A stretch of 25,290 nt of DNA from a virus. The notes under the pieces are model-generated. The model had not been told where the DNA came from. It searched no databases and saw only the letters and a list, made by a program, of their open reading frames with translations. Below, one piece after another: positions 9,718 to 20,315 of this stretch (position 1 is its first letter; each line of letters starts with the position of its first letter). The position numbers were made by a program, and so were the translations under genes. Location: positions 1 through 25,290 of the IMG/VR virus record IMGVR_UViG_3300047317_000531. One strand, given 5' to 3'.

Positions 9718-10776
9718 ATGCAGCTTTCCATAAGTCGCGCCGATCTCTCGCGCGTCATGACCAACGTCGGTCGCGTCGTCGAGGCACGCAACACAATTCC
9801 AATCCTGTCCAGCGTCCTGCTAACCGCCAGCGACGGCCGCCTGACGATATCTGGCACCGATCTCGACATCATGGCTACAGCAAGCACCGATGCTGACGTA
9901 TCGACGCCAGGCGCCATTTGCGTCGATGCGAAGCTGCTCGGCGATATCGTCAAGAAGGCCGGAGACAGCGACGTCACCATGTCTCTGGCTGGCGACAAGC
10001 TGACCGTCAAATCAGGACGCAGCAAATTCACGCTGCAGACACTTCCGGCAGACGACTTTCCGGACCTGAAAGACGACGACTTCAAGACGGAATTCGAGAT
10101 CGATCTTGCTGCGCTCTTCGCCCCGTGCGCCTTTGCGATCTCAAACGAGGAAGTGCGATACTATCTGAACGGCGTCTTCTTCATCGCCGACGACGGTTTC
10201 ATGACGGCGGTCGCCACCGACGGACATCGGCTTGCGCGCCACCGCCAACCTTCCACCGAAAGTTTCACCGGCGTCATCGTGCCACGCAAGACCGTCGGCA
10301 TGCTTCCGAAGGGTATCGTCACTGTTGCGGTCTCAGAAACCAAGATCCGCATTCGTGCCGGCGACTTCTTGCTGGTTTCAAAGCTGATCGACGGGACGTA
10401 TCCGGATTATGAGCGCGTCGTTCCGAAATCGAATGACAAGCTGATCACGGTCGATCGGGACGCTATCTTGAAGGCTGCCGATCGAGTGGCGTCGATTTCG
10501 TCGGAGCGTGGCCGTGCCGTCAAACTCAGCATCGCGCCAGGATCCGTCGAGCTATCCGCGCGCTCGGATGTCGGGCAGGCTGAGGACGAGGTCGCCGCTG
10601 AATACACTGGCGAGCCGATAGATATCGGTTTCAACTCGGTCTACCTGCGCGATCTGCTGAGCGTGCTGCCAAGCGGTCCTGTTGTCATTGCGCTGGCGGA
10701 CAATGGCTCGCCTGGTCTTGTCACGTCGCCGGCGTTCGATGGGCTGACCCTCGTTGCCATGCCTATGCGTGTGTGA
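9718..10776 (+). CDS. dnaN: Phage-encoded DNA polymerase III beta subunit (sliding clamp)
   Basis: A 352-residue protein that reads as a full-length beta clamp: N-terminal MQLSISRADLSRVMTNVGRV, TIPILSSVLLTA, the central FFIADDGFMTAVATDGHRLA with the family's ATDGHRLA signature, YPDYERVVPK, and a C-terminus VAMPMRV close to the usual MPMRx end. It would encircle DNA and tether polymerase and other clamp-binding proteins to the replication fork. It is slightly shorter than typical bacterial clamps but shows no truncation. GAGGAGACCATA precedes the ATG. A clamp in a phage early operon is unusual; hosts carry their own copy elsewhere. Confidence 0.93.
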   Translation: MQLSISRADLSRVMTNVGRVVEARNTIPILSSVLLTASDGRLTISGTDLDIMATASTDADVSTPGAICVDAKLLGDIVKKAGDSDVTMSLAGDKLTVKSGRSKFTLQTLPADDFPDLKDDDFKTEFEIDLAALFAPCAFAISNEEVRYYLNGVFFIADDGFMTAVATDGHRLARHRQPSTESFTGVIVPRKTVGMLPKGIVTVAVSETKIRIRAGDFLLVSKLIDGTYPDYERVVPKSNDKLITVDRDAILKAADRVASISSERGRAVKLSIAPGSVELSARSDVGQAEDEVAAEYTGEPIDIGFNSVYLRDLLSVLPSGPVVIALADNGSPGLVTSPAFDGLTLVAMPMRV

Positions 10777-15184: not shown

Positions 15185-16600
15185 ATGCAAACCAACGTTG
15201 CGCCAAGTGCGCAAGCGGATGCCTATGCCGCGTTCTTGGCCAGAAAGGCGATCCTCGATCCGCCAACTGGCCTATCGGAGATTCCGGATCTGCCCGCAGG
15301 GCTGTTTCCATTTCAGCGAGACATCGTGACATGGGCGCTCAAGCGCGGTCGGGCGGCGTTGTTTGCTGGCACTGGTCTCGGCAAGAGCTTCATGGAGCTT
15401 GCGTGGGGACAAGCCGTGCACCACGCGACGCAGGGCGACGTCCTGCATTTCGCGCCGCTAGCAGTCGCCGCGCAGATGGTGCGCGAGGCTGAGAAGTTTG
15501 GCATCCCTGCTAGGCATGTCCGGTCGCAAGCCGATTGCGGCCCGGGCATCAACATCACCAATTACCAGAAGATTGAACACTTCGATCTCAACGAGTTCGG
15601 CGGCGTGATCCTCGATGAGAGCAGCATCCTCAAGTCAGAGTCAGGTCACTATCGCAACGAGTTGGTCGATGCCTGCCACAACATCCCATTCCGGCTGTCG
15701 GCCACGGCGACCCCGTCACCGAACGACTACATGGAGCTGGGCAACCAGGCTGAGTTCCTCGGCATCATGTCCTATTCCGACATGCTAGCGACGTTCTTCA
15801 CCCACGATGGTGGTGAGACGCAGAAGTGGCGCTTGAAGGGTCATGCCGAGAACGATTTCTGGCGGTGGATGGCTTCGTGGTCAGTCCTACTGCAGAAGCC
15901 GTCCGATCTCGGATACGAGGACGGCGCGTATGATCTGCCGGCTTTGCATCAAATTCACCATACGGTGACAACTGCGCCAGACGGTATCGACCTGATCGGC
16001 GGAACTGCTTCGACGATGCAAGAGCGTATCAGGGCACGGCGAGACAGCGTGTTGGAAAGGTGCGCAGCAGCGGTTGATGTCGTGCCTAAAGACGGGCTGC
16101 CGTGCATCTTTTGGTGCAATCTCAATGCTGAACAGGATGCGTTGGAGAAGTTGCTTGGCGATGCCGCCATTTCAATCCGCGGCACGCAAAAAGACGAATT
16201 GAAGGAAAGCCTACTGTTCTCTTGGCTCGCTGGCGACAAGCCAAACATCATCTTGAAGCCGTCAATGTTCGGATGGGGCCTGAATTTTCAGCACTGCCGA
16301 CGCATGGCGTTCGTCGGGCTCAATGACAGCTGGGAGCAAATATTCCAAGCCGTTCGTCGATGCTGGAGGTTCGGCCAGACTGGCGAAGTCTTCGCTTGGT
16401 TCATCGCGGCCGATACGGAAGGCGCGGTCGTCGCCAACCTGAAACGCAAGGAAGCCGACGCCGATCGCATGGCCGCAGCGATGGTTTTGCACACGGCAAA
16501 CATCACCAAGCAAGCCATCAACTCGCAGGTTCGCGACAAGGCCACCTACGACCCGAAGATCCCAATGCAGATCCCCACATGGCTAGGAGGCGCCCAATGA
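15185..16600 (+). CDS. SNF2-type phage helicase/translocase
   Basis: A 471-residue protein. Motifs in order: a Q-like FPFQRDIV (41-48), Walker A GTGLGKS (62-68), ITNYQKI, LDESSILKS with DESS as motif II (144-147), LSATATPSPN (171-180), and QAVRRCWRFGQ as motif VI in the second lobe. The DESS box and WRFGQ-type motif VI point to the SNF2-like branch of SF2, here a phage subfamily. These proteins usually move along duplex DNA. The DNA methyltransferase gene starts inside its last codons (ATGA), so the two are translated together and may form a functional pair. GAGGAGACGAG precedes the ATG. Confidence 0.85.
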   Translation: MQTNVAPSAQADAYAAFLARKAILDPPTGLSEIPDLPAGLFPFQRDIVTWALKRGRAALFAGTGLGKSFMELAWGQAVHHATQGDVLHFAPLAVAAQMVREAEKFGIPARHVRSQADCGPGINITNYQKIEHFDLNEFGGVILDESSILKSESGHYRNELVDACHNIPFRLSATATPSPNDYMELGNQAEFLGIMSYSDMLATFFTHDGGETQKWRLKGHAENDFWRWMASWSVLLQKPSDLGYEDGAYDLPALHQIHHTVTTAPDGIDLIGGTASTMQERIRARRDSVLERCAAAVDVVPKDGLPCIFWCNLNAEQDALEKLLGDAAISIRGTQKDELKESLLFSWLAGDKPNIILKPSMFGWGLNFQHCRRMAFVGLNDSWEQIFQAVRRCWRFGQTGEVFAWFIAADTEGAVVANLKRKEADADRMAAAMVLHTANITKQAINSQVRDKATYDPKIPMQIPTWLGGAQ

Positions 16601-17661
16601 CAGTGACCGCAGCAACCGTGACCGCAGATATCAACACTGTGAACCAGGTCATCACCGACAAGTACGCGATCTACGAGGGCGACTCGTGCGAACTGATCCG
16701 CGCCATCCCCGGCGACAGCGTCCATTTCGGAATTCACTCTCCGCCGTTCGAGGGTCTCTATAAATTTTCGAGCTTCGACCGAGACATCAGCAACAACGAA
16801 GGCTCTGGTTTCTGGACGCACTATGCGTTCCTGATTCAGGAACTCCTCCGCGTCACCAAGCCCGGTCGTATCCATTCCGTCCATTGCATGCAGCTGCCGA
16901 CAAGCAAGAGAAGAAACGGCTTCATCGGTATGCGCGACTTCCGCGGCGAGATCATTCGCGCCTACGAAGACGCCGGATGGATCTTCCATTCCGAAGTCTG
17001 CATCTGGAAAGACCCTGTCGTCGCGCAGCAGCGCACCAAGTCCATTCGACTGCTGCACAAGCAGGTCACGAAGGATAGCTGCATCAGCGGCCAGGGGCTT
17101 GCCGATTACATCGTTTCGTTCCGCAAGCCCGGTGAGAATATCGAGCCCGTCGACGGCATGTTTGATGCGTTCGTTGGTTCACAGGCCGGCGAAGATGGCG
17201 GCCTTGACGTTAGCCGCGAGGCTTACGATCGGCACGCGGCTGACACGATCGCCGAAGGCCGCACGCCTTGGAGCTTTGAGCAATGGCGTTCCGTGTTCGT
17301 CTGGCAGCGCTACGCGTCGCCGGTGTGGAGCGACATTCGTCAGACGCGCACCCTGCAATATCGTGGCGGCCGGGACGAGCAGGACGAGCAGCATATCTCG
17401 CCGCTGCAACTGGACGTGATCGAGCGGTGCATCGATCTGTGGAGCCTGCCTGGCGAAGTCGTTCTGACACCATTCCTTGGCATCGGCAGCGAGGTCTATT
17501 CCGCCGTCGAGATGGGTCGCATTGGCGTCGGGTTCGAGCTGAAACCTTCGTATTTCCGCCAAGCTGTCAAGAACATCGCAGCGCTTGGCACCAAGGAGCA
17601 GCCGGCCGCTGATCTGTTTGCTGCTGCCAACGACAATCAGCCGGTGCGGGTGGCTGCGTGA
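16597..17661 (+). CDS. Beta-class DNA methyltransferase (N4-cytosine or N6-adenine)
   Basis: A 354-residue protein. Motif IV HSPPFE lies near residues 47-52 and the SAM-binding motif I FLGIGSEVYSAVEMGRIGVG near 293-312, the order of the beta class. SPPF is most often seen in N4-cytosine enzymes, but phage members of both kinds exist. The region between (about 90-280) would hold the target-recognition part. There is no restriction endonuclease beside it, so it may protect phage DNA or act with the SNF2-type protein. The C-terminus is AANDNQPVRVAA, strikingly like an alphaproteobacterial ssrA tag. AGGAGG precedes the ATG, which overlaps the previous stop. Confidence 0.88.
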   Translation: MTVTAATVTADINTVNQVITDKYAIYEGDSCELIRAIPGDSVHFGIHSPPFEGLYKFSSFDRDISNNEGSGFWTHYAFLIQELLRVTKPGRIHSVHCMQLPTSKRRNGFIGMRDFRGEIIRAYEDAGWIFHSEVCIWKDPVVAQQRTKSIRLLHKQVTKDSCISGQGLADYIVSFRKPGENIEPVDGMFDAFVGSQAGEDGGLDVSREAYDRHAADTIAEGRTPWSFEQWRSVFVWQRYASPVWSDIRQTRTLQYRGGRDEQDEQHISPLQLDVIERCIDLWSLPGEVVLTPFLGIGSEVYSAVEMGRIGVGFELKPSYFRQAVKNIAALGTKEQPAADLFAAANDNQPVRVAA

Positions 17662-18362
17662 CCATCCACTACCACGGAACGCCAATCACCCCTCGTTCCG
17701 AACTCGTTAAGATGGCGGGCAAGTGCTTCTTCGTGTCCTTCGCCAATCCGGGCGACGCTGAATGGTGCTTGGCCAATGGCCAGTCTGTCGGGTGGGACAA
17801 TGGCGGATACCCAGCCTTCACTCAAGGCAAGCCCATCACAGATTGGAAGCCATACTACAGATGGGTTGAACAGAAACTTGGCCATCCGCACTGGGCGGTT
17901 GTCCCGGACGTGATTGGCGGCGCCGTTGAGGAGCAGCGGGAACTTGTTGCTCAGTGGCCTTTTCCCAAAGAACTATCCGCTCCCGTTTGGCACACAGGCT
18001 TGCCGATCGATTACCTACTCGAGCTCGCCGACAATTGGCCGAAAGTCTGCTTTGGGTCGTCTGGACAGTATTGGCAGGTGGGCTCTGACAAGTGGGCAAG
18101 AAGAACGGACGAGGCATTCAATGCCCTTGAAAGCCGAAGGCTAAGACCTTGGGTGCATATGCTGCGCGGCCTTGCTGTTTGCGGGGATATCTGGCCGTTC
18201 GCCAGCGCCGACAGCACTAACATAGCCAGGAACTTTAAGAACAAAGGAAGTGAGGTGTGCCCGGAAAGGATGGCCCGCCGTATCGACGCAGTTCAGTGCC
18301 CAGTCAAATGGATAATGAAAACCAACCACCACGAAGGAGACCTATTCGATGTCGCAGCTTAA
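17658..18362 (+). CDS. TGT/DpdA-like protein, possible 7-deazaguanine transferase
   Basis: A 234-residue protein from a GTG overlapping the previous stop. Motifs: IHYHGTPITP (N-terminus), SVGWDNGGYPAF (about 43-54), VVPDVIGG, PVWHTG, KVCFGSSGQYW (about 129-139), HMLRGLAV and FASADSTNIARN (about 179-190). The spacing and the DNGG, G-S-S-G and A-D-S-T elements are reminiscent of the TIM barrel of tRNA-guanine transglycosylases and their DNA-acting relatives (DpdA), though the protein is shorter than TGT. DpdA enzymes swap guanine in DNA for a 7-deazaguanine base. The nearby YhhQ-type transporter supports this. Its C-terminal codons also encode the CACCACGAAGGAGAC leader of the next gene. Family call is moderate; activity is inferred. 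Confidence 0.55.
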   Translation: MTIHYHGTPITPRSELVKMAGKCFFVSFANPGDAEWCLANGQSVGWDNGGYPAFTQGKPITDWKPYYRWVEQKLGHPHWAVVPDVIGGAVEEQRELVAQWPFPKELSAPVWHTGLPIDYLLELADNWPKVCFGSSGQYWQVGSDKWARRTDEAFNALESRRLRPWVHMLRGLAVCGDIWPFASADSTNIARNFKNKGSEVCPERMARRIDAVQCPVKWIMKTNHHEGDLFDVAA

Positions 18363-18744
18363 GACCCTTTACCTATGCGGGCCGATCAATGGATGCACTG
18401 ACGAGGAGTGCAAGGACTGGCGCGAGTTCGTGACCGCCAACTGGGATGGCCGCACGCTTGATCCAATGCGTCGCGACTATCGCGGCAAGGAAGACGATTC
18501 CGTCAAAGAGATCGTTGAACTCGACAAGATCGACGTTATCGAGTCGGACGTAATTCTGGTAAATTACGACAAGCCGAGCGTCGGTACGTCAATGGAAATC
18601 CTCTACGCATTCGAGCGCGGCAAACTTGTCGTGGTCGTGGCCAAAGACGGGACGCGCATCTCGCCATGGATGCGCTACCACAGCCACAAGATCGCACCAT
18701 CGTTCGAAGCCGCGATGACTTACGTCAGGGAGTTCTACGCATGA
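18349..18744 (+). CDS. Nucleoside 2-deoxyribosyltransferase-like protein
   Basis: A 131-residue Rossmann-like protein. LYLCGPINGCTDEECKDWRE (residues 7-26) holds the family's GPI motif. DPMRRDYRG lies in the middle, and DVILVNYDKPSVGTSMEILY (about 65-84) carries the usual catalytic-type GTSME region. These match the 2-deoxyribosyltransferase-like group common in phages. It may transfer or remove the base of a deoxynucleoside. It sits between the TGT-like gene and the queuosine-precursor transporter, so a role in handling an unusual base is attractive but unproved. AAGGAGACCTATTCG precedes the ATG, 14 bases inside the previous gene. Confidence 0.75.
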   Translation: MSQLKTLYLCGPINGCTDEECKDWREFVTANWDGRTLDPMRRDYRGKEDDSVKEIVELDKIDVIESDVILVNYDKPSVGTSMEILYAFERGKLVVVVAKDGTRISPWMRYHSHKIAPSFEAAMTYVREFYA

Positions 18745-19274
18745 GCAAGTGGATATCGTTCGTCCTGTTCATCCTGACTATCCCTGCAGCCAACTGGATG
18801 ATTGGCAACGTCGGCACCATGTGCATTCCGAATGGACCGTGCATGATCCCGGTGGGCTTAGGCCTTCTGGCACCTAGCGGTGTCCTGCTCGTAGGTATCG
18901 CTATGGTGCTGCGCGACTGGATCCACGAACAGCACGGAACACGCGGGGCGCTGGTAGCCATAGCGATTGGCGGCGGACTATCGGCGCTATTTGCTCCGCC
19001 TGCGCTTGTGGTGGCCTCTGTGGCTGCCTTCATGCTGGCTGAAGTTGCCGACCTTGCAGTCTACATCCCGTTGCGAAAGCGTGGACTTGGTCTGGCAGTC
19101 CTCGGCAGTGGACTGATCGGATCCATCGTCGATAGCGCAATCTTCTTGCTTCTCGCGTTCGGCAGCCTTCAGTTCATCGAAGGCCAGATACTCGGCAAGC
19201 TATGGATGAGCGCTCTGGCGTTCGGCTTTCTGCATGTTGCCTCCATCCGCCGCGTGACTGCAGCCCATGGCTAA
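18741..19274 (+). CDS. VUT/YhhQ-family transporter for a queuosine precursor
   Basis: A 177-residue membrane protein starting by ATGA overlap. It has a signature IGNVGTMCIPNGPCMIPVGL (about 24-43), APSGVLLVGIAMVLRDWIHE, a further membrane helix with LFAPPALVVASVAAFMLAEV and ADLAVYIPLRKRG, then IVDSAIFLLLAFGSL. Five or six membrane helices are expected. These features fit the VUT (YhhQ) family, whose studied members import the 7-deazaguanine precursors preQ0/preQ1. In a phage early operon beside a TGT-like gene it would supply the base for DNA modification. Substrate is inferred from the family. Confidence 0.82.
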   Translation: MSKWISFVLFILTIPAANWMIGNVGTMCIPNGPCMIPVGLGLLAPSGVLLVGIAMVLRDWIHEQHGTRGALVAIAIGGGLSALFAPPALVVASVAAFMLAEVADLAVYIPLRKRGLGLAVLGSGLIGSIVDSAIFLLLAFGSLQFIEGQILGKLWMSALAFGFLHVASIRRVTAAHG

Positions 19275-19650
19275 ACTTCCACCAACAGGCCAGCCCATCA
19301 TCCCATTCACGCCTACCCAGGATACCGACGGCCAGCCGACCGTCTGCAAGGCGTGCGGCTGTCTGGCGTTCGGCATCGGTCGACCTGCGCCTGGATCAAA
19401 AGACCCTGGCTATCTCTGCAAGCCGTGCATCGTAGCGATAGGAGATCTAACGAAATTGGACAGGGTATCGATCTACGAAGTCAAGGCGCTTGAAAAGGGC
19501 GTCGAGGCCGTCGGCGAGTGGATTGCATCGAACGGCAACCTGACTGACTTGGCGCACTATGATGAGCTCATGCAGCTGATGCTGGTCAAGGCGGCGTGGG
19601 AAGGCTGCGCGCGGGGGGTCCGTGAGGCGTTGCGGGAGGCGCCGTTTTGA
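19267..19650 (+). CDS. Zinc-ribbon phage protein, DUF6511-like
   Basis: A 127-residue protein overlapping the transporter gene by eight bases. CKACGCLAFGIG (about 27-38) and CKPC (about 51-54) give a four-Cys zinc ribbon. The C-terminal half is helical, with VGEWIASNGNLTDLAHYDEL and an AWEGCARGVREALREAPF end, which resembles phage proteins annotated as DUF6511. Role unknown; perhaps binding of nucleic acid or of a protein partner. The next gene begins at its stop (TGATG). Confidence 0.6.
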   Translation: MAKLPPTGQPIIPFTPTQDTDGQPTVCKACGCLAFGIGRPAPGSKDPGYLCKPCIVAIGDLTKLDRVSIYEVKALEKGVEAVGEWIASNGNLTDLAHYDELMQLMLVKAAWEGCARGVREALREAPF

Positions 19651-20315
19651 TGCGGGCGATGAAGGTTCTTGTCGCATGCGAGTTCTCGGGGACCGTTCGC
19701 AATGCGTTCCTCGACCGCGGACATGACGCATGGTCTTGCGATCTGCTCCCAAGCGAGGATGGAAGCAATCGTCATATTCAAGGCGACGCTCGCGATCTAC
19801 TTAACGATGGATGGGATTTGCTTATGGTAGCGCATCCGCCTTGCACGCGGCTCTGCAACAGCGGCGTTCGCTGGCTATCTGCGCCTCCTCCGGGGCGCAC
19901 AGCAAGCGACATGTGGGCTGAACTTGATGAGGGTGCGGAGCTGTTTTCTGCGTTCTGGAACGCGCCAATCGAACGTATCGCGATCGAGAACCCTGTCATG
20001 CACAAGCACGCGAAGAAGCGGATCATAAACTATCGTGATTTCGCGCAGAGCGTACAACCTTGGCAGTATGGTCACCCTGAAACCAAGCGCACCTGCCTTT
20101 GGCTCAAGAACCTGCCGAAGCTAACGCCCACCAAAGTTGTCGACGGACGTATCGCCCGGGTGCATCGAATGCCACCCGGGCCAGACAGGTGGCGAGAACG
20201 GTCAAGGTTTTTCGCCGGAATTGCCAACGCGATGGCTGACCAGTGGCCGCGTTCATTCTTTGGTGGCCTGCCGCAGTATGCCAACGACAACAATAATCTG
20301 GAGATTGCAGCCTAA
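19650..20315 (+). CDS. C5-cytosine-methyltransferase-like phage protein
   Basis: A 221-residue protein. GGGAGG lies 10 bases before the ATG at 19650. MKVLVACEFSGTVRNAFLDR resembles the SAM-binding motif I, and WSCDLLPSE fits the acidic end of the second strand. MVAHPPCTRLCNSGVRWL carries a Pro-Pro-Cys like catalytic motif IV, and ERIAIENPVM resembles motif VI (ENV). The protein is much shorter than C5 methyltransferases and has no clear target-recognition domain. So it may be a minimal enzyme acting on a nucleotide or other substrate. It ends YANDNNNLEIAA, another ssrA-like tail. It overlaps the primase gene by one base. Confidence 0.65.
   Translation: MRAMKVLVACEFSGTVRNAFLDRGHDAWSCDLLPSEDGSNRHIQGDARDLLNDGWDLLMVAHPPCTRLCNSGVRWLSAPPPGRTASDMWAELDEGAELFSAFWNAPIERIAIENPVMHKHAKKRIINYRDFAQSVQPWQYGHPETKRTCLWLKNLPKLTPTKVVDGRIARVHRMPPGPDRWRERSRFFAGIANAMADQWPRSFFGGLPQYANDNNNLEIAA

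Follow-up and report, generated by a model that had tools for sequence, protein, structure and literature searches.

Gene organization of the locus

The analysed window is the whole 25,290-base stretch of viral DNA that forms positions 1 to 25,290 of IMG/VR record IMGVR_UViG_3300047317_000531. It contains a chain of six overlapping genes encoding a helicase, a methyltransferase, a DpdA-like protein, a deoxyribosyltransferase-like (NDT-like) protein, a VUT-type membrane transporter (VUT) and a DUF6511 protein (Table 1). The third to fifth genes probably form a cassette for salvage-type 7-deazaguanine modification of DNA. The preliminary description, made from the letters alone, had named these three coupled genes at 17658-19274, and their places, strand, overlaps and all three identities were borne out by the open reading frames (ORFs), profiles and folds.

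The GTG start of dpdA falls within the 3' end of the methyltransferase gene, which stops at 17661. It overlaps the NDT-like gene by 14 bases, and the latter overlaps the VUT gene by 4 bases. Differences at codon positions 1/2/3 were 19/20/50% between dpdA and the L012 copy, 17/14/54% between dpdA and the L190 copy, and 5/5/49% between the NDT-like gene and its relative in L167. In this comparison, which covered dpdA and the NDT-like gene, both show the codon-position pattern of selected genes. It is hardly credible that the genes adjoin by chance or are decaying and have no function in common. Gene order in phages is indeed fluid and some prophage dpdA copies are split over two frames, as in an Ensifer aridi prophage (L209), where the adjoining VUT is open, and in L210, broken likewise, but the overlapping starts and stops, the excess of differences at the third codon position and the repeated linkage in both gene orders (below) speak against it. 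The N4/N6 methyltransferase gene lies upstream in the same operon, but nothing ties it to the cassette.

Neither queC, queD nor queE was found in the window with profiles grown from phage sequences, as the preliminary description had stated, nor was FolE (PF01227). QueC and QueD were also not found in the 31.6 kb record G039 of the same virus, 12.7 kb of which was compared with the window at 99.99% identity; both records may be fragments.

Table 1. Coordinates of the cassette, of other genes in the window, and of related features in other loci
Feature	Location	Strand	Basis or remark
Helicase gene	15185-16600	+	First of the overlapping run
DNA N4/N6 methyltransferase gene	16597..17661	+	PF01555 52.7 bits (cut-off 26.7); ATG at 16597 read directly
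Short DpdA, 234 amino acids	17658..18362	+	phrog_887, E 3.4e-43; profile relatives; TIM-barrel model
NDT-like protein (deoxyribosyltransferase/DNPH1-fold N-glycosidase), 131 amino acids	18349..18744	+	PF05014 32.7 bits (cut-off 28.8)
Vut_1 family (YhhQ/QPTR-like) membrane protein, 177 amino acids	18741..19274	+	PF02592 47 bits (cut-off 27.2)
DUF6511 gene	19267..19650	+	Overlaps VUT downstream; PF20121 29.4 bits (cut-off 28); phrog_19707, E 7.5e-43
DNA polymerase III beta clamp, phage-encoded	9718-10776		Three Pfam domains above cut-off
phrog_757 'DNA methyltransferase' protein	19659-20315		Two genes downstream of VUT
Split dpdA, Ensifer aridi prophage	L209 5968-6680		Two frames
phrog_15826-type DpdA-like (predicted)	L102, L111, L117, L157, L164, L187-L189; StevieRay L235, Aoka L236, ReqiPine5 L240
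QueC-like ORFs	L044 5444-5998; L160 4478-5230; L153 4785-5942		Beside VUT-DpdA pairs
phrog_37496-type small protein	L001 4771-5004; examples L013, L025, L042, L053, L106, L174, L177, L202, L207, L214-L217		Outside the window
Second small protein, 81-86 amino acids	L003 5681-5941; L001 4518-4763; L102 5748-5990; also L190, L163
VUT overlapping phrog_757 protein, mEp021	L238 2992-4259

Identity of the DpdA-like protein

The DpdA-like protein falls in phrog_887, labelled 'queuine tRNA-ribosyltransferase'. It gave no match at E 1 in Pfam and NCBIfam; PF23859, the Pfam family of DpdA, matches phiLM21 p025 and left the window DpdA unmatched, and PF01702 (TGT) found no match in the window, its control matching in 14 of 14 genomes. 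A profile of DpdA relatives scored 218 bits with MED16 gp38, 164 bits with 7-11 gp032, which also has 234 amino acids, and 43 bits with CAjan DpdA, all three proteins being excluded from the profile scored against them. Profile comparison of the short DpdA with eight host TGTs was not significant, and the A5 profile, one of those used to look for DpdA, reached only E 0.73 with its best match among the PDB sequences.

Residues D47, D84, H112, G133, H167 and R170 are invariant across 65 sequences and D185 is nearly so (at least 90%). D47, D84 and D185 are likely the active-site aspartates of the short DpdA; from the order of the motifs and from TGT biochemistry, we take them to correspond to the catalytic aspartates of TGT. 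The AlphaFold model is a TIM barrel (predicted local distance difference test score, pLDDT, 92.3), and TGTs and Cap10 head its VIA-align list, with Z 15.4 for archaeosine TGT, 15.1 for Cap10 and about 14.3 for Zymomonas TGT. On its sequence relatives, the assignment of the 17658-18362 product as a short DpdA of the MED16/7-11 type holds, and by analogy we infer that it would put a 7-deazaguanine into DNA.

Two other targets could be considered. The shared superfamily and chemistry and the PHROG label would fit a small TGT that boosts tRNA queuosine (Q) together with a precursor transporter, and QPTR transporters do supply tRNA Q in bacteria, where QPTR-TGT fusions also exist (PMC11130926). This is very improbable in view of the missing PF01702 match, of a 234-residue protein without the CxCxxC cysteines of the host TGTs, of the TGT that 37 of 38 prophage hosts (see below) have of their own, and of profile relatives that accompany DNA modification. 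Alternatively, the TGT-like protein might join a 7-deazaguanine to protein, or recognise the conjugate, like Cap10 of the type IV cyclic-oligonucleotide-based antiphage signalling system (CBASS). Cap10 also has a TGT-like fold that handles 7-deazaguanine, it is as near in fold as TGT itself, and protein deazaguanylation is real (PMC11996544). However, Cap10 acts with a QueC-like partner, Cap9 (PMC11996544), and no such partner or queC-type ORF was found in the window; PADLOC gave no CBASS match among the six window proteins scanned, and the sequence relatives of the window DpdA come from phages with modified DNA. We regard this second target as improbable.

Transporter

Besides its match to PF02592, VUT belongs to phrog_4899, as does the annotated preQ0 transporter of CAjan, and a simple scan revealed four strongly hydrophobic segments. 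By analogy with these relatives, it may import preQ0 or a sibling base.

Linkage of DpdA and VUT across viruses

Used as a single query in IMG/VR, the window DpdA gave three loci only, and profile scans were therefore used. The DpdA profile found at least 582 relatives in IMG/VR. We kept the 80 best, those closest to the window, and grouped them at 95% DpdA identity into 56 distinct loci, one of them this virus. A VUT gene lies within 2.5 kb of the short DpdA, upstream or downstream, in 42 of the 56 distinct loci. Among the loci with 1.5 kb of sequence on both sides, also 42 in number, 35 have VUT, two have a que gene only and five have neither. Of the 14 distinct loci that lack VUT, four have queD or queE beside dpdA.

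From the transporter side, the best 80 of 132 VUT relatives in IMG/VR were kept, corresponding to 54 distinct loci, again with this virus as one. DpdA-like genes of three sequence groups adjoin VUT in 53 of them: 47 short DpdAs, five of the phrog_15826 type and one PF23859 DpdA (phiLM21); the remaining locus is cut by a contig end. Among eight named records fetched by VUT, a DpdA-like gene is next to it or one gene away in five (phiLM21, StevieRay, Aoka, ReqiPine5 and PEAT2). A second VUT query matched 21 deposited records, and by coordinates dpdA is directly beside VUT in twelve; the other nine include mEp021 and PEAT2 (two records of one phage, in the one read of which VUT and DpdA overlap). 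The DpdA and VUT genes are side by side by coordinates in the deposited E. coli phages LHE71 (on K-12) and Lg3 (on C), and RHph_N3_2, a cultured phage with a Rhizobium host, has the pair as well.

A quick tree was made of 60 representatives; five rows with short flanks were dropped, and 21 of its 57 inner branches lack resolution. VUT follows dpdA in 24 of the representatives, precedes it in 17 and is absent from 19. These three states need at least 15 changes on the tree, compared with a shuffled mean of 28.4, and the well-supported branches force at least five per state.

The phrog_15826-type proteins are predicted to be DpdA-like enzymes from their motifs, which are the same, their VUT or NDT-like neighbours and their alignment with short DpdA (hhalign E 1.8e-7, probability 94%). 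Of the five beside VUT, the three that were scanned match phrog_15826, and the remaining pair share 75% identity with one of the three. Profile comparison of this type with eight host TGTs gave nothing significant. Deposited actinophage members of phrog_15826 are labelled DpdA-like, and PHROGs lists the family without function.

Precursor supply and hosts

In 50 of the 72 listed phage records, whole records were searched for QueC and QueD. QueC was found in two (L044 and L153), both with VUT. QueD was found in three, L027, L172 (weak) and L004 (below cut-off), none of which has VUT beside dpdA.

Prophages contributed 40 loci in 38 genomes, L223 and L229 being second contigs; some of the genomes are metagenome-assembled genomes (MAGs), and a few VUT-less loci end close to dpdA (e.g. 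L212, L213). VUT is beside dpdA in prophages of nine genomes. In three of these nine hosts, Rhizobium subbaraonis, a Devosia MAG and a Rhizobium MAG, QueD was not found and QueC matched only in part (about 60 of 210 columns), with TGT present. QueD was found in all 29 hosts without VUT beside dpdA and QueC in 28 of them. The absence of QueD thus differs as 3/9 against 0/29 (Fisher p = 0.01, uncorrected for kinship).

By tree path, the nearest DpdA relatives are L190, an Agrobacterium pusense prophage, and the metagenomic L012 and L099. Since the A. pusense prophage is among them, the host is taken to be rhizobial, and the source is probably a temperate phage of Rhizobiaceae.

The NDT-like protein

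The model of the middle protein (pLDDT 91.3) gave Z 16.7 to the 2'-deoxyribosyltransferase 7o62, 14.9 to MilB and 14.3 to DNPH1. The structure therefore ranks a transferase first, whereas the sequence profile is nearest to Rcl/DNPH1, its best match among PDB sequences (E 2.4e-4). Y8, D59, D67 and E83, presumably the known catalytic residues, are invariant in 19 NDT-like sequences.

Twenty-four IMG/VR relatives of the NDT-like gene represent 19 distinct loci, 16 of which lie beside a DpdA-like gene; in three of the 16 (L175, L183 and L184) the DpdA match is weak (29-36 bits) and queD or queE is also nearby. In named phages it occurs in or near preQ0 synthesis clusters. The order is QueE-QueC-QueD-NDT-FolE-DpdA in Aminobacter phage Erebus, with small genes between some, QueE-NDT-QueC-QueD-FolE in RHph_X3_2, and QueC-FolE-DpdA in Edwardsiella phage ZHS, where the NDT gene follows about 1 kb on. 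Together with the DpdA neighbours, these clusters indicate that the NDT-like gene accompanies 7-deazaguanine genes both where the base is synthesised and where it is imported.

With DpdA and VUT acting as proposed, the middle protein could still be an ordinary deoxynucleotide N-hydrolase of nucleotide metabolism or pool cleaning with no part in base supply. DNPH1 relatives hydrolyse deoxynucleoside monophosphates, going by the names of the PDB matches; a survey of archaeal viruses assigns phage NDT to pyrimidine metabolism (PMC8651126); and three of the 19 distinct NDT-like loci have no nearby DpdA, L173 adjoining a dCMP deaminase instead. However, the 16 loci with DpdA-like genes span several DpdA sequence groups, and with the association to full preQ0 clusters they make this possibility rather unlikely. 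The release of a 7-deazaguanine base by the NDT-like protein, as Qng1 and QueK do for queuine, would fit such neighbours and is the least certain part of our proposal.

Comparison with known systems

Phages that carry DpdA only (Hutinet et al. 2019, their group 3, which includes Salmonella phage 7-11) and Pantoea phage MED16 have the same short DpdA and, like the window, lack preQ0 synthesis genes. They differ in that MED16 has no VUT or NDT-like gene beside dpdA and none is annotated there in 7-11, whereas in the window dpdA lies in one overlapping run with both. In MED16 DNA, 2'-deoxy-7-amido-7-deazaguanosine (dADG) amounts to about 0.13% of G and hardly affected the enzymes tested (PMC8306585); in 7-11 DNA it amounts to about 0.02% of G (PMC6884629). 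CAjan, EC151 and Vid5 resemble the window in having DpdA and a Vut_1 transporter. CAjan and EC151 carry folE, queD, queE and queC and Vid5 lacks one of the four, while the window record has none; the DpdA of biosynthetic phages is longer (306 amino acids in CAjan) and distant from the window's. Inactivation of dpdA abolishes DNA modification in CAjan (PMC8306585, PMC6884629).

For Orion, a DpdA-only phage whose host has no preQ0 synthesis, Hutinet et al. report no modification (PMC6884629), so that DpdA needs a supply. The same authors suggested host preQ0 or uptake as the source for DpdA-only phages and found YhhQ to correlate with none of their groups (PMC6884629). In Vid5 a transporter within the que cluster was reported together with a salvage idea (PMC6266253), and one is discussed in the que cluster of EC151. 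Two archaeal viruses with a preQ0 pathway also carry YhhQ (PMC8651126); in HRTV-29, DpdA is reported by the authors of that study and was not found by us with A5, PF23859 or A8. Uptake or salvage by phages was thus already proposed in print, and what is new here is that VUT is linked to DpdAs of several groups and that NDT joins them as a partner. In the literature found, the coverage of which is incomplete, neither the pairing of short DpdA and VUT nor the NDT link was described, and we therefore place the window as a new member of a suspected salvage variant.

Bacterial Q salvage uses QPTR/YhhQ, TGT and QueK or Qng1, the last two freeing the queuine base (PMC11130926), and follows the same transporter-transglycosylase-glycosidase logic as the window. 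The expected target in the window is instead DNA, and its glycosidase has the deoxyribosyltransferase/DNPH1 fold.

Proposed pathway

In the salvage-type cassette as we propose it, VUT would import a 7-deazaguanine base, either preQ0 or a related one, for instance preQ1. The short DpdA would then exchange guanine in the phage DNA for the imported base by transglycosylase chemistry of the TGT type, and the middle N-glycosidase might free the 7-deazaguanine base from (deoxy)nucleotides for DpdA, in the role of QueK or Qng1. We put a rough probability of 0.6 on this reading.

Several results weigh against it or qualify the evidence. In the structural comparison with TGT that the preliminary description had suggested, PdxJ, another TIM barrel, is practically tied at Z 14.1, and Foldseek alone puts transaldolases first at low TM-score. 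TGTs do lead the VIA-align list, but the fold alone cannot decide the identity of DpdA. VUT scores 39.7 bits against the queuosine precursor transporter equivalog TIGR00697, below the cut-off of 50.95, and is therefore likened to that family and not filed there. The seeds of the VUT profile all adjoined a DpdA-like gene, which biases the VUT scan in favour of the linkage result. Three of the eight named VUT records (mEp021, RHph_Y17 and MT837598) have no adjoining DpdA-like gene; RHph_Y17 has a DpdA elsewhere in the record, and in the whole mEp021 record none was found with three profiles. No more than three of the 56 distinct DpdA loci carry the NDT-like gene, and this virus is one of the three; the NDT-like loci without DpdA count here too.

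The preliminary description had further supposed that the precursor is scavenged and not synthesised. This gained comparative support from the pairing in both gene orders, from the links of NDT to DpdA and que genes, and from hosts without preQ0 synthesis. It stays conditional: the records may not cover the whole genome, and one or more additional Vut_1 matches were found in eight of the nine VUT-type hosts, the prophage copy being separated from host ones by coordinates. For this last reason the phage VUT may serve dose or specificity. Protection from restriction by this type of DpdA is doubtful, since the modification reported with it is sparse (0.02-0.13% of G), a level that also weighs against the reading as a whole.

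We might tentatively speculate on a wider scheme, though the odds lie somewhat against it: a modular and self-contained salvage pathway with an importer of its own, DpdA-like enzymes of three or more sequence groups that can stand in for one another, an NDT-like glycosidase releasing the base from nucleotides, which would be a new function for this phage family, and sometimes a tailoring protein resembling QueF-L (phrog_37496, below). Such a pathway would allow DNA modification in hosts without preQ0 synthesis (mycobacteria, some rhizobia) and would depend on an environmental micronutrient.

Other proteins and loci

A small protein of about 80 amino acids (phrog_37496) was found in L001 and 37 further loci, mostly beside dpdA, with and without VUT. 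In the PDB its profile best matches the archaeosine synthase QueF-Like (5jyx, E 0.0012), and the CP motif and the glutamates of the two align, which makes it a candidate mini QueF-L tailoring enzyme. The alignment A4 behind these searches included MED16 gp37, which does not match that family. A small protein upstream of some dpdAs had been considered as the cause of dADG in MED16 and was dropped because gp37 lies outside the family. The second small protein occurs in 12 loci with VUT and two DpdA types, and has a weak, partial match to phrog_9572, a family that carries the label sulfatase-modifying factor enzyme.

In L153, the N-terminal half of DpdA, with the D47 and D84 motifs and without the D185 part, continues into a QueC-like domain in a 386-codon frame, which may be a fusion, a deletion or an assembly error. 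A phage-like VUT adjoins queC in the host genomes L243 (G007:C111) and L246 (G003:C1), L243 having queD and queE as well. L244 (G013:C24) has queC, queD, a weak TGT match and VUT in one stretch, perhaps a bacterial dpd-type island.

Clamp genes like that of the window likewise border the DpdA clusters in CAjan, Erebus, ZHS and RHph_X3_2. In mEp021, a lambdoid phage, the gene that VUT overlaps encodes a phrog_757 protein ('DNA methyltransferase') instead of DpdA, by chance or through a link; the window encodes a phrog_757 protein too.

Implications

In the sets examined, short DpdAs and the transporter are strongly linked, whichever of the two genes comes first, and the link extends to several DpdA groups. 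If the proposal is true, it shows how DpdA phages without preQ0 synthesis can be supplied, and the modification of their DNA would depend on an environmental micronutrient. It would also give predicted functions to two families listed without one, phrog_15826 and phrog_4899, and a candidate role to the phage deoxyribosyltransferase-like family.

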